NCBI GenBank assembly: GCA_021155845.1
Contig: JAJNBK010000045.1
Location: 1-13,455 of the forward strand
Direction: 5' to 3'
Source: Nitrososphaeraceae archaeon
Lineage (GTDB): Archaea > Thermoproteota > Nitrososphaeria > Nitrososphaerales > Nitrososphaeraceae
DNA: 13,455 nucleotides
The notes beneath the pieces were generated by a model, which was not told where the DNA came from, ran no database searches, and was given only the letters and a program-made list of their open reading frames with translations. Shown in pieces: positions 4,792 through 11,137 of this stretch; positions within the stretch are counted from its first letter, which is position 1; every line of letters starts with the position of its first letter. The position numbers and the translations under genes are program-made.

Positions 4792-5046
4792 TTATTCCTT
4801 CCACATCAACTTTTCTAGCCTCTCCTTTTGCTCAATCAGTTCTTGTACCTGTTGTTCTTTTCTCCTGCAATCGTGTTCACAAGAGAATGCTGTTGCATCT
4901 AATATTGAAATTTTATTCTTCATAGCTTGTATATCGTTTGATAAATATTGTCTTGTGCGTTGCATATTATCTACCACATCTTTTACCTGTCCATAGAGGG
5001 CTTCCATAGAAGGAAGTTTGTCATCAGCGATGTCTACGACATGCAC
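4792..5046 (-). CDS. Coiled-coil protein; C-terminal half of a broken HTH/coiled-coil gene
   Basis: An 84-residue open frame, begun here at GTG 5046. After an acidic start (HVVDIADDKLPSMEALYGQV) it is one long heptad-like helix, ending KEQQVQELIEQKERLEKLMW, with a Cys pair in FSCEHDCRRKE. Reading on upstream in the same frame gives GYFVKLCESEKK, a TAA, then DIGIEKVVHVVD, which is the natural link to the HTH gene ending at 5106. So this was probably never a separate gene: 4792-5462 was one gene of about 220 codons or more, now cut by an amber codon (5295), a frameshift (about 5106-5120) and this TAA near 5075. Full-length relatives as I remember them are longer, so the C-terminus may also be truncated where the dioxygenase fragment begins. 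Confidence 0.55.
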   Translation of the reverse strand: MHVVDIADDKLPSMEALYGQVKDVVDNMQRTRQYLSNDIQAMKNKISILDATAFSCEHDCRRKEQQVQELIEQKERLEKLMWKE

Positions 5047-5105
5047 AACTTTTTCTATCCCAATATCTTATTTCTTTTCCGATTCGCATAACTTTACAAA
5101 ATATC

Positions 5106-5462
5106 CTATACCGTTACTCCTAATTCTTTATAAGCCAAATAGAATTTATGCAGTCGCTTCAGCTTGCAATATTCTATGAACATTCTGGTTACTTCTGGTT
5201 CTTTAAGGTTTAGTGTGATAGCTACTTCGACAGGGTACTTATCTTTAGAAAACAGTTCATATGCTTTGGTAGCAAGTAAAGAAGAAGAATGTTTCTAATT
5301 ATTAGTAACGATACTATTATTCCTTTGTTCTTCCTTCTTTAGTATGGTAGTTATCGTATTTGGTGGCATTCCAAGCTCTTTTGCTATATCACGAAAAGTC
5401 TTTCCTTGATTATAGTAAAGATCTATAACACGTCTCTCTTTTTCTTCTTTACTTAGGAACAT
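5106..5462 (-). pseudogene. Helix-turn-helix protein interrupted by an in-frame TAG
   Basis: From ATG 5462 the frame reads MFLSKEEKERRVIDLYYNQG, then KTFRDIAKELGMPPNTITTI, a compact HTH of the sigma-70 region 4/resolvase type (helix, turn GMPP, recognition helix), to TAG at 5295-5297 after 55 residues. The same frame continues without shift for 62 more codons: KAYELFSKDKYPVEVAITLN, then LKEPEVTRMFIEYCKLKRLH, to TAG 5106-5108. That second half matches the second half of the intact-looking 132-residue copy at 10208-10606, so the TAG is a nonsense mutation within one gene (NN-stop-KHSS). A longer TTG start at 5495 is unlikely because that region belongs to another gene. The first half alone could still be made. 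Role: presumed DNA-binding regulator. Confidence 0.7.
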
Positions 5463-5488
5463 TTGATTTATCTTCAAGACTAAAGAAT

Positions 5489-5656
5489 GGTTCAAGTCGC
5501 GGAACTAGAAAGGAACTTAAAGATCTTATAAATATGTCAAAAGAACTCAAGATTAAAGTGTCAAGACGATTCAAACTCGATGAAACAAAAGAAGCTATAC
5601 AAGCTTTGTTTGCCAAAGAAAGGCAGGGTCGAATTATGTTAGAAATTTCGGATTGA
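5489..5656 (+). pseudogene. C-terminal fragment of a zinc-type alcohol dehydrogenase (MDR family)
   Basis: The plus frame reads GSSRGTRKELKDLINMSKEL, then KVSRRFKLDETKEAIQALFA and KERQGRIMLEISD to TGA 5654-5656. The G-T-xx-L / F-x-L-D-E-x-x-E-A / G-x-I-x-L order is the end of medium-chain (zinc) alcohol dehydrogenases and quinone reductases. Only about 55 of some 340 residues remain; the catalytic and Rossmann domains are gone. The break lies at about 5480-5489, right at the 5' end of the HTH gene, where that gene's upstream sequence should be. It is not functional alone. Confidence 0.7.
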
Positions 5657-5904: not shown

Positions 5905-6771
5905 TCATGCTAATGCTGACAGTTCTAAACTCATATCACTCTGTCTACTCAGCTTCCTGTCAGGATCTGTCAGCCAAGAGTATATGTCTTCTAAGATGTA
6001 ATCGCGAATGGGACCAGGTACCTCAATCCAGCTGTCCTCTCCAATATAGGTCAGAAGATGTCCATGACCCGGATATACTATTATAGTGTGGTCAGGATGG
6101 TTTAGAGCTATCAGTTTCTGTTCTAGCATGAACGCTTGCGCAGGCGGCTGTCCGAGATCATGTCCACCTTGAATTATCAGAATGCTAGAGGAGGAGAGAT
6201 TTCCAATTACGCTTAGATTGTCAAGTTCTGCTATAGACCTCATCATAGGAGGACACCCCACACCTAGATATGGGCAGGATCTGTCCTCAGTATCTACAAA
6301 TATTGATTGAAATCTTTGCTCAAGGAAGCTCCTGAGTGTGGTGTCAATTTCTATTGCTTGTTCGCCGCCGTCAACTTCTCTTGTCTCTAATCCTTCTACA
6401 AATCCATAGTCGCCAGTAGTGCTGTTTTCTACAAGCATCCTGCTTGGAATCGGAGCAGAAGTCCAGTAGGGTGTATTCTCAGTTGCCACAACCTCGGATA
6501 GCGATACAAAGCCATCATGGTTCCTATCCAAAATTTCCCTTGCATACTGCAGGGTGGTGTTTACCATAAGTGTATGTATAATATCGCCTAGTTTTTCAGC
6601 TCCAGTAGATAGCAGCAAGACATTCTTTACAAATGGATTGGCAGCAACTAACCTTGTTGCGATCCATGATCCTTGGCTCCCACCTAATACTGAAACGTTG
6701 TCTTTATCTACTTCTGGCTGGTCGACCAAAGTATGCAGAGCCTTGTTTGCATCGCTGATCAGGTCATCCAT
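5905..6771 (-). CDS. Alpha/beta hydrolase, main catalytic part (second piece of a split gene)
   Basis: This 288-residue frame holds most of a serine hydrolase: the nucleophile elbow GGSQG (Ser32), the acid region IIQGGHDLGQPP and the catalytic His in GHGHLL. In the cap region between nucleophile and acid is a perfect EF-hand loop, DRNHDGFVSLSE (residues 82-93): D1, N3, D5, G6 and E12 are all in place, so calcium binding is likely. The nominal start, ATG 6771, lies inside the end of the upstream frame, and the HG oxyanion motif is only in that upstream piece, so this piece alone cannot be a complete enzyme. A TGA at 5905-5907 cuts off the membrane-anchor tail. Together the pieces make a secreted, surface-anchored hydrolase of about 460 residues; the substrate is unknown. 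Confidence 0.8.
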   Translation of the reverse strand: MDDLISDANKALHTLVDQPEVDKDNVSVLGGSQGSWIATRLVAANPFVKNVLLLSTGAEKLGDIIHTLMVNTTLQYAREILDRNHDGFVSLSEVVATENTPYWTSAPIPSRMLVENSTTGDYGFVEGLETREVDGGEQAIEIDTTLRSFLEQRFQSIFVDTEDRSCPYLGVGCPPMMRSIAELDNLSVIGNLSSSSILIIQGGHDLGQPPAQAFMLEQKLIALNHPDHTIIVYPGHGHLLTYIGEDSWIEVPGPIRDYILEDIYSWLTDPDRKLSRQSDMSLELSALA

Positions 6772-7148
6772 TGTCTGGTGTCAGGGTCTTCTATGGTGCC
6801 GTTTGCTCCAATTGCTCTTTTGTCATAACGCAAGACCACAAAGCCTCTTTCAGAGAGATATTCTGCAATTTGCTTAAAATCTCTGCTATCTGGCGGAATA
6901 AACTGATCCCTGTCCAAAGGTCCCAAACCATGAATCAAGAGAATAGCGGGAAGGGAACGGTTAGCCAGTACAGGCATTGTCAGTTCTACGTCCGTCTGTA
7001 TTCCATTCCCTAAATCTATAGTCAAATCTCTGTGCCTGATGGTCTTGCTGCTGTTTTCATGTGCAGTAGTAGCGTACACTCCATTAATAAGAAAAGAAAA
7101 AACAAGTACACAGCTTACGGATAACGCTATAATTGTTCTTGCAAACAT
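6759..7148 (-). CDS. Alpha/beta hydrolase, signal peptide and N-terminal part (first piece of a split gene)
   Basis: From ATG 7148 (MFARTIIALSVSCVLVFSFL) a clear signal peptide ends near INGVYATTA. It is followed by the first strands of the hydrolase fold and the oxyanion motif ILLIHGLG (about residues 69-76), then GFVVLRYDKRAIGANG, a conserved block before the nucleophile strand. The frame stops at TGA 6759 just after DPDTRQWMT, where homologues should continue into the nucleophile elbow. That part is found in another frame from 6771, so a small insertion or deletion near 6765-6775 splits the gene. A purine-rich GGAGATGA is directly before the ATG. The gene starts 33 nt after another decayed gene on the same strand. 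Confidence 0.8.
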   Translation of the reverse strand: MFARTIIALSVSCVLVFSFLINGVYATTAHENSSKTIRHRDLTIDLGNGIQTDVELTMPVLANRSLPAILLIHGLGPLDRDQFIPPDSRDFKQIAEYLSERGFVVLRYDKRAIGANGTIEDPDTRQWMT

Positions 7149-9452: not shown

Positions 9453-10037
9453 TTACTCTTTATCATTTTTATAAATTCCTAATTGACTATTATCATTATA
9501 TCTGAGTTCTTCTCTTTCATCATATGTATTATTATGGGGTAGTTTCTGCTTGTTGTTATTATTATTACCTATTGATGGTAACGATGGTGCTCTAATAGCT
9601 ATTGCTGTTGCTGCTATAACTATATTTGCTAATTCAGCTGTTAACTTATTATAAAGCTTTTCAGACTCTTCTAATATCAAAGCAGTATAGCTATCGTTAA
9701 ATGATTGTTGTTGCTGTTCTCCTGACGACACTAATGAAAGGTAGTTAGATCCATAAGTAGTAGAAGTAGTTTCAACGAAAGTACTATACGATATAAAATT
9801 AAATAATTCAGGGTTGCTTCTCAATGATTCAATTACTGAGAGTGTAGCAAATTTCAAGAGTAGTTTACTGTCTGTTAAAAGACTTTTCACCTTTTCTTCA
9901 GCTGCCTGTTTGATTTCAAGATATTCCTCATTATTGTTCTTAAATCCTCTTACGATAGTCTCAAGTCTTGCCTTTTCATTGTAGAGCTTTCTTATCTCTC
10001 TTTTTTCTCTTATACAAGATATACGATAAGAGTTCAA
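9453..10037 (-). CDS. Coiled-coil protein; C-terminal part of a broken HTH/coiled-coil gene
   Basis: A 194-residue open frame from ATG 10037 (MNSYRISCIREKREIRKLYN). Residues 1-55 are a strongly charged coiled coil (EKARLETIVRGFKNNNEEYL). A helical domain follows (KLLLKFATLSVIESLRSNPE), then a helix with EESEKLYNKLTAELANIVIA and an Asn/Lys-rich flexible tail. The gap to the HTH frame (10038-10207) is coding in other frames: KAKGIGLKQVV, then NDLPSIEERLKTHRNDISIL, a TGA, then WERRLYKLNNQISSTIRLL leading into NSYRIS. So this frame is the last half of one ancestral gene of about 380-400 codons that began at 10606, and the ATG here is an internal Met or Leu-Asn-Ser context, not a true start. A presumed DNA-binding regulator or scaffold with a multimerising coil; no enzymatic motif. 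Confidence 0.65.
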   Translation of the reverse strand: MNSYRISCIREKREIRKLYNEKARLETIVRGFKNNNEEYLEIKQAAEEKVKSLLTDSKLLLKFATLSVIESLRSNPELFNFISYSTFVETTSTTYGSNYLSLVSSGEQQQQSFNDSYTALILEESEKLYNKLTAELANIVIAATAIAIRAPSLPSIGNNNNNKQKLPHNNTYDEREELRYNDNSQLGIYKNDKE

Positions 10038-10207: not shown

Positions 10208-10606
10208 CTATACCTTTGGCCTTTCACCTTTAGTCTCTTCATAAACTGTATTCAGTCTGTGTAGCTGCTTTAGCTTCCAATATTCTCTATAGAATTTAGT
10301 TGCCTCTGACTCTCTAAGGTTTAATGCAATCGCTACTTCTAATAGAGTGTTACGTTCGGAAAAGAGTTTGTAGGCTTGGGCTGATAGAGATAGGTGTTGT
10401 TCATGTTCTTGATTGTCGTTCTTTGAATTAATATTATCTTGTTCTTCTTTTGATCCTTCAGCCTTCCATCTAATTGTCTTATTCAAAATAATTCCTATAT
10501 CGCGTGGAGATATTCTTGCCTCCTTAGATATCTCACGATAAGTCTTACCCTGATTGTAAAGCTCTAAAACAAGTCTTTCTCTTTCCTTTCTTGTTAATAT
10601 CGTCAT
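10208..10606 (-). CDS. Helix-turn-helix protein; N-terminal part of a broken HTH/coiled-coil gene
   Basis: The 132-residue frame from ATG 10606 begins MTILTRKERERLVLELYNQG. It has the HTH KTYREISKEARISPRDIGII (about residues 21-40), a polar linker (about 50-75), and a second helical domain with SAQAYKLFSERNTLLEVAIA and NLRESEATKFYREYWKLKQL, which itself looks like a second HTH. It ends KGERPKV at TAG, where a small deletion has joined YEETKG to a shifted KAKGIG; the rest of the ancestral protein follows in pieces down to 9453. A paralogue is at 5106-5462. The TATA-rich ATACTATATATTT (10629-10641) lies about 27 nt before the ATG, so it is probably leaderless, and a nine-unit repeat array lies just upstream (10655-10740), a likely binding region, perhaps for this protein itself. 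The two HTH domains are intact and might still work alone. Confidence 0.75.
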   Translation of the reverse strand: MTILTRKERERLVLELYNQGKTYREISKEARISPRDIGIILNKTIRWKAEGSKEEQDNINSKNDNQEHEQHLSLSAQAYKLFSERNTLLEVAIALNLRESEATKFYREYWKLKQLHRLNTVYEETKGERPKV

Positions 10607-10616
10607 ATATATTTTG

Positions 10617-10641
10617 TATCTTCAAGAAATATATAGTATAA
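10617..10641 (-). promoter_or_regulatory. TATA-rich promoter and conserved leader motif of the HTH gene
   Basis: On the minus strand TTATACTATATATTT (TATA box, 10629-10641) is followed by TCTTGAAGATA (10617-10627) just before ATG 10606. The same 11 bases stand at 5469-5479, just before the ATG of the second HTH copy, so the motif was duplicated with the gene and may matter for expression. Confidence 0.45.
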
Positions 10642-10654
10642 TGGAAGCTTAAAG

Positions 10655-10740
10655 CTGTTATTGTTATCATCTGTTACCAGTTTTGTTATCCTTGCTATCA
10701 CTTCATTACCTCTGCTATCATCTGTTTCCAACCGTTACCA
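10655..10740 (-). repeat. Array of nine ~10-bp degenerate repeats (plus-strand YTGYTAYCA) upstream of the HTH gene
   Basis: On the plus strand the units are CTGTTATT (10655), TTGTTATCA (10661), CTGTTACCA (10671), TTGTTATCC (10683), TTGCTATCA (10692), TTCATTACC (10702), CTGCTATCA (10712), CTGTTTCCA (10722) and CCGTTACCA (10732). Five successive steps are 10, 10, 10, 10 and 9 bp, so the sites fall on one face of the helix. On the transcribed strand the motif is TGRTARCAR. The array sits 15-100 bp beyond the TATA box of the HTH gene, as expected of a multi-site operator or activator platform; iterons are an alternative. No such array is found elsewhere in the window. Confidence 0.7.
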
Positions 10741-10910
10741 ATGCACAGTAATTGAATTCAGAGCATCAGTAATAATGCTGTTATATATGTACTAAATATC
10801 GATGGTGAATTTCTTTTGATATTATCTTTCTCTAACTGTCAAATAGAAGTTTGCAATGCTGTCTTTAGGATAATATATTAAACGTTTTGGGACTCTGATG
10901 AAAATTGATA

Positions 10911-10959
10911 CGGGCCCAGAGGGCAGGCAGCCATTCTATCCAAGCTGAACTATGAGCCC
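10911..10959 (-). pseudogene. Internally deleted tRNA gene relic (49 nt)
   Basis: On the minus strand GGGCTCA-TA-GTTC-AGCTTGGATA-GAAT-G is a normal tRNA acceptor strand and D arm. It is followed by GCTGCCTGCC (5' side of the anticodon stem and CT-GCC, which would read as a glycine GCC anticodon), then directly TC and TGGGCCCG. The last seven bases before G pair with GGGCTCA along the whole acceptor stem (one G-T), and G is the discriminator. The 3' anticodon strand, variable loop and T arm (about 26 nt) are missing, so no working tRNA can form. A TTGATAAAGGATAA box (about 10978-10991) stands where a tRNA promoter should be. The identity is uncertain. Confidence 0.6.
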
Positions 10960-11137
10960 CCGGTGTAGGTTAGCGCTTATCCTTTATCAACTTCCCCTCT
11001 AAGGGATAATCTAAACCATTCAATTAAGACATTTAGATTAAATCATATATAGTATATCTATCAATGACGTTTCTATCCTAAATTATCTTGCAATCGTTGT
11101 ATTATTAGCATTATCTACACATCGATTGATTCATTTC

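Follow-up and report, generated by a model that had tools for sequence, protein, structure and literature searches.

Helically Phased Repeat Arrays Upstream of an HTH/Coiled-Coil Gene Family in Nitrososphaeraceae as Candidate Operators of Their Own Genes

Introduction

What purpose could be served by a run of short repeats, spaced about one helical turn apart, upstream of an archaeal gene that is itself broken? The question is raised by a stretch of 13,455 nucleotides from a Nitrososphaeraceae archaeon (GCA_021155845.1, contig JAJNBK010000045.1), referred to here as the window, in which a first-pass annotation had described such an array upstream of a gene for a helix-turn-helix (HTH) and coiled-coil protein. 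Helix-phased operator arrays are known from single systems. We find that the array, its phasing, its orientation and its position recur upstream of members of one gene family, to which the arrays are linked, and that the types of unit are specific to subfamilies. We propose, with a probability of roughly 0.6, that the array serves its own gene as an operator and that this gene is autoregulated through cooperative binding of the encoded protein to one face of the DNA.

Results

The array of the window reads in the direction of the HTH gene (Table 1). A matrix trained on 160 units from other genomes, with none from the window, finds a chain of eight units on the minus strand of 10660-10742 with a score of 77.7; elsewhere in the window, both strands included, no chain exceeds 15.1. 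When the whole window was randomized 100 times with a first-order Markov model, the top score was 22.0, and 2000 copies of 10609-11000 gave at most 20.8. The array is present where the first-pass annotation had placed it. Of the nine copies counted there, eight stand in phase and the ninth (10655) does not, lying 6 bp from its neighbor at 10661; a spacing of "mostly exactly 10 bp" holds for five of the seven intervals, which run 10, 10, 10, 10, 9, 12, and 10 bp toward the gene. In the unit nearest the gene, the core starts 62 bp ahead of the start codon at 10606. A weak unit stands at 10703 (-3.7 bits), and locus L033 has a similar one at the matching place (-1.8 bits). Because the units are degenerate, Tandem Repeats Finder at a score of 30 does not have the array among the repeats that it reports, and plain autocorrelation is modest (0.41 at lag 10, 0.41 at lag 20, and 0.39 at lag 9). 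The pattern YTGYTAYCA with one mismatch has 45 matches in the window, seven of them inside 10661-10740.

Table 1. Features of the array locus and of family copies in the window
Feature	Position	Strand	Basis or remark
Array, eight phased units, core GRWANCA	10662..10739	minus (direction of HTH gene)	matrix chain and spacings
Unit cores, far to near the gene	10733-10739, 10723-10729, 10713-10719, 10703-10709, 10693-10699, 10684-10690, 10672-10678, 10662-10668	minus	
Element between array and gene, AGCTTTAAGCTTCC, resembling AAAAGCTW of other members	10643..10656	minus	one base differs between window and L033
5' piece of broken family gene, HTH1 and HTH2, 132 codons	10208..10606	minus	ORF, frames, Pfam HTH matches that stay under the cut-offs
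3' piece of the same broken gene, coiled coil and C-terminal part, other frame	9453..10037	minus	ORF, frames
Second, more decayed family copy	4792..5495	minus	ORF, HTH matches, frames; array score upstream 4.2

As read, the gene next to the array is broken, with its two pieces in different frames and stops between them, and the binder of the window array would therefore have to be an intact relative. The joined pieces used as a query found 1110 relatives; among the 120 listed, lengths are 328-433 residues and the source annotation often reads "transposase" or "hypothetical protein". Neither viral contigs nor plasmids yielded a close relative of the window protein or of alignment A1, and two short peptide patterns yielded none in genome contigs; members of the family were reached via another gene of the window and by whole-genome searches. 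The search of Nitrososphaeraceae genomes matched 39 of 70, and a class-level sample of 250 genomes had 22 with a family match, the single one outside the family list at 7.5e-4. Genome G001 holds 52 matched stretches, pieces of one copy being counted apart, many of which are short or contain stops. These stretches have the look of a graveyard of copies, often still carrying arrays, and contig ends may account for some of the short ones.

The predicted model of relative P0001 (56 sequences; mean pLDDT of 70.2, pTM of 0.28) is all helix; its two HTHs fall within residues 6-62 and 75-126, and they are followed by long helices (147-293) and a C-terminal helix (314-359). At this level of model confidence, it agrees with the two HTH-like domains and the long coiled coil that had been read from the window sequence. 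Six relatives were scanned. The Pfam sigma-70 region 4 match is above its cut-off in two and below it in three, and no catalytic or enzyme domain exceeds a cut-off in the Pfam, NCBIfam, and PHROGs scans. A defense-family scan of five relatives returned one weak match, which lies over the coiled coil. A match to 8vd6 "CAP REPEAT", which we take to be a designed protein, was set aside as generic HTH similarity.

To see the array in the context of the family, we collected 83 starts of family genes and dropped 10 with identical last 150 upstream bases, which left 73 distinct starts, two of them in the window. Besides the window, 28 genomes contributed to these starts, G001 alone providing 25 of the 73, and all counts that follow are counts of related paralogues. 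The units of the matrix were picked by a fixed core, which forces the core columns, and we therefore counted the bare core as well. Upstream of the 73 starts we counted 207 GRWANCA cores on the gene strand against 34 on the opposite strand and 20.9 in dinucleotide shuffles, and the distances between pairs of cores, taken without any spacing model, peak at 10, 20-21, 30-31, 41, 51, and 61 bp. When each genome was scored with a matrix trained without it, 51 of the 73 forward regions (210 bp each at most) and none of the 73 reverse regions came out above 15.3, the 99.9% control level obtained from 3000 random genomic pieces of 200 bp. The passing regions come from 21 of the 29 sources, so the repeats that the first-pass annotation had suggested looking for upstream of homologues are there; the other 22 regions fall below the control level, and some of them carry other units that lie outside the matrix scoring. 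A chain score of at least 25 is reached by 38 regions from 12 sources. Long arrays are therefore common in G001, G003, G004, G020, and G021, and elsewhere the arrays are short or different.

Position and orientation are consistent as well. Of 43 chains scoring 22 or more near the 73 starts, 41 are found on the gene strand and upstream of the start, and the other two belong to loci with a second cassette; the putative one at L095 is suggested by its match to L194. Arrays persist beside broken genes, both in the window and in G001, and the second family copy of the window has none, its upstream score being below the control level. As far as sequence comparison can tell, the repeat sites sit in the promoter region of many family genes and stay with them across genomes.

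Specificity was measured on 97 contigs of G001, G021, and G004 that were chosen by number (772,131 bases), passing over, in G001 and G021, the numbers of contigs already giving family loci. The sample includes two stretches of the family but no complete start, and so measures specificity, not sensitivity. Three chains in it score at least 25. One of them, in L144 (73.2), was considered as a non-family array and rejected, being a coding Gly-Ser-Ser repeat in exact 9-mers. The other two, L180 and L194, match the array-and-leader regions of G001 family loci and are relics of the same cassette whose gene is lost or cut short. Five weaker chains score 22.4-23.6, one in the Gly-Ser region of L144 and four, of 2-3 units, with no adjoining family gene. 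Another 19 loci from this taxon (L001-L018 and L028; 225,245 bases) contain no chain that reaches 22, and neither do their Markov copies. Equally good runs at random places, which had been named at first pass as evidence that would count against the array, were thus not seen at that strength.

The units of an array stand about one helical turn apart. Among the 44 of 73 regions with a chain score of at least 20, the 35 arrays of at least four units have a mean period of 10.05 bp (sd of 0.30). The intervals in the 44 regions are 10 (108), 9 (42), 11 (38), 12 (19), 8 (17), and 13 bp (6), counts that lean to 10 because the chain model permits 8-13 bp and favors 10, which makes the pair distances above the freer evidence. 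The long arrays of G004 and G021 alternate in part between 10 and 11 bp, near the B-DNA turn. Arrays range from 2 to 16 units and many have only 2-4; the longest, in G004, includes four units below 1 bit. A displaced unit (8-9 and then 12-13 bp) recurs in the G001 copies, and the architecture is therefore more than a plain 10-bp ladder. We also considered a two-unit grammar of 21 bp, under which a GRA-type unit follows in 2 of 28 cases after 11-12 bp and in 26 of 58 after 10 bp (Fisher p of 0.0004), and did not build on it because it rests on 10 of 19 arrays of at least seven units and on related copies.

The type of unit follows the protein. Two or more AATCA units occur at seven of the 10 loci with an ISLKDIG-like recognition helix and at none of the 63 other starts, the group having been delimited after the sequences were seen, and 12 of the 14 neighboring distances in those seven loci are 9 bp. 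A GRTARCA unit, with a GTAACA-type core, is found at 47 of the 63 starts outside the AATCA group. Genome G005 holds both types, GRTARCA at L038 and AATCA at L048. Such subfamily-specific units are in keeping with every protein recognizing its own array, but cassettes descending as linked blocks would show the same pattern. Self-regulation, put forward at first pass as the simplest idea, keeps that place as the proposed reading.

When the window is compared with L033 of G003, in which the order of units is similar with one unit fewer, identity is 78% in the array, 70% in the leader, 80% in the first 120 coding bases, 64% in the next 270, and 60% in the flanks; shuffled array pieces of the G001 copies give 62% with the same aligner. 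Eleven G001 copies (55 pairs) are 82.5% identical in the array, 88.4% in the coding start, and 61.4% in the far flank. In these copies the array has diverged more than the coding start and therefore shows no extra constraint. A second conserved block lies above the array in G001 loci such as L054, L086, L087, and L100, at about -240 to -135, where mean identity over the 11 copies is 73.8% as against the 61.4% further up.

In the window, an element similar to AAAAGCTW stands between the array and its gene. AAAAGCTW occurs in 21 of the 73 upstream regions, in six genomes, where 1.2 are expected, and 13 of the 21 hits lie 40-49 bp before the start. We regard this element, AGCTTTAAGCTTCC in the window, as a candidate BRE/TATA. 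A further motif above the array, TGARTTCA, was found at 6 of 73 loci (0.9 expected) and is too rare for a claim.

Discussion

The mechanism that we favor treats array, core promoter, and gene as one Nitrososphaeraceae cassette, the gene encoding a protein with a sigma-70-region-4-like HTH, a second HTH, and a long coiled coil. Copies of this protein would occupy the units head to tail along a single face of the DNA, roughly one per helical turn. The coiled coil would join neighboring copies, which would make binding cooperative and steep in concentration. The bound array would end beside the likely BRE/TATA and could in this way control transcription of its own gene; since it lies just upstream of the presumed TATA, repression and activation are both allowed. 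Weighing on the other side are the 22 starts whose upstream DNA falls short of the control level, the arrays kept beside broken genes, the G001 copies in which the coding start is better conserved than the array, and the fact that linked descent would also pair unit type with subfamily.

Partition systems offer the nearest comparison and also the first competing explanation, that the array is a centromere-like or chromosome-organizing site which the protein coats like ParR or TubR, tethering or bridging DNA, with autoregulation secondary. Up to 16 units seem beyond the needs of simple autoregulation, and the long coiled coil of the predicted model may suit such a role. Partition repeats, too, are found upstream of the binder's operon. 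In the available excerpts of the source reports, tubC consists of direct repeats upstream of an operon that TubR represses, with higher-order complexes forming on the repeats (PMC5016525), and ParR of pB171 binds two 10-bp repeats where ParR of R1 needs two 11-bp repeats (PMC9426499). To judge from these excerpts, both systems are like ours in having short direct repeats upstream of the operon of a DNA-binding protein, the encoded binder being putative in our case. TubR and ParR, however, are small RHH or winged-helix proteins, whereas the family combines HTH, HTH, and coiled coil and has many stretches per genome. Among the 25 clusters listed of ORFs of at least 90 codons in the fetched flanks of the 73 starts, which are often short, none occurs in more than two genomes, and this lack of a recurring partner gene beside the cassettes, such as the NTPase or cytomotive gene of partition systems, speaks against membership in a partition system of the TubR/tubC or ParR/parC kind. 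The many arrays of 2-4 units and the 52 family stretches within a single genome also tell against a centromere-like site, which we consider unlikely.

A quite improbable reading, to our minds, is that all arrays are bound by one or a few host regulators instead of the encoded proteins, and that these regulators govern the expanded family. The GTAACA-type core is common to most members, as the 47 of 63 starts with GRTARCA attest, and the four short chains away from family genes (22.4-23.6) could be sites of a wider regulon. One regulator would be insufficient for all arrays, however, given the two unit types at L038 and L048 inside G005, and in the 772 kb sampled there is no chain of at least 25 at non-family genes apart from the coding repeat.

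If the array were instead the binding end of a transposon, the HTH protein would be its transposase. The dispersed and decayed stretches of G001, the name transposase that many of the listed relatives carry, and the homology between copies, which often spans array and gene together, would all suit such an element. The domain scans speak otherwise, since the six relatives match as HTH and coiled coil with no catalytic domain above cut-off. Over the 45 longest of 267 matches, the upstream limit of homology falls anywhere between about -5 and -960 and the copies share no end. No array lies 3' of the gene except at a second cassette. We hold a transposon end to be very improbable. That the array acts in RNA, as part of a transcribed leader, is the most remote of these readings, for although the window array is within about 135 bp of the start codon, the window leader folds no better than shuffles (z of 1.07), Rfam has no match in the window at gathering scores, and a period of one helical turn is a feature of DNA.

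Autoregulation through an operator array has partial parallels elsewhere. Stf76 of pSSVx, according to excerpts of its description, is an archaeal HTH protein that binds sites at its own promoter, the distal site with two direct repeats (PMC4027180); on that account it differs in being one small plasmid-virus protein with two sites, where the arrays here have 2-16 phased units and belong to a large family. The CRISPR repeat-binding protein Cbp1, likewise archaeal, has several HTH domains laid along repeated DNA in the portions of the report available (PMC10883916). One of the six scanned relatives, P0085, has a weak match to the Cbp1 model NF040595, at 19.6 bits far below the NCBIfam cut-off of 140, and the units here stand about 10 bp apart without spacers of the CRISPR type. 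In Beggiatoaceae, excerpts of one study describe many sets of short TAACTGA direct repeats, which mostly precede start codons (PMC4679880). Those are, as described there, tandem 7-mers, mostly exact, found at many kinds of gene and not tied to one gene family, whereas the arrays here are tied to one.

Among the best-ranked matches in the open-access literature searched, we found no description of the family or its arrays, and the available excerpts of a study of integrated elements in Thaumarchaeota (PMC6563490) do not mention the family. A family without a found description, with up to 52 matched stretches per genome, an array at most of the starts examined, and subfamily-specific units, provides a natural series for testing the joint change of HTH proteins and repeat operators, and the arrays give a first handle on the role of this expanded HTH/coiled-coil family. 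More speculatively, the cassettes could be private address codes, each paralogue binding best to its own array by unit type, spacing, and number. One archaeal genome would then hold many orthogonal, self-recognizing regulator-operator pairs, perhaps for mutual exclusion or as chromosome landmarks, which would diversify by recombination with the pool of broken copies. We hold this extension to be rather doubtful.

Other Features of the Window

Relative P0105 shares 40 residues letter for letter with the window remnant at 9918-10037 (minus strand), while the whole proteins are 63% identical; this looks like recombination between family members. Positions 1-370 have 60.3% G+C as against 35.0% in the rest of the window and may represent a foreign gene or a joined contig. 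On the minus strand at 5905-7148 lies an alpha/beta-hydrolase-like gene in two overlapping frames, 5905-6771, which carries the Pfam match, and 6759-7148, probably split by a frameshift.
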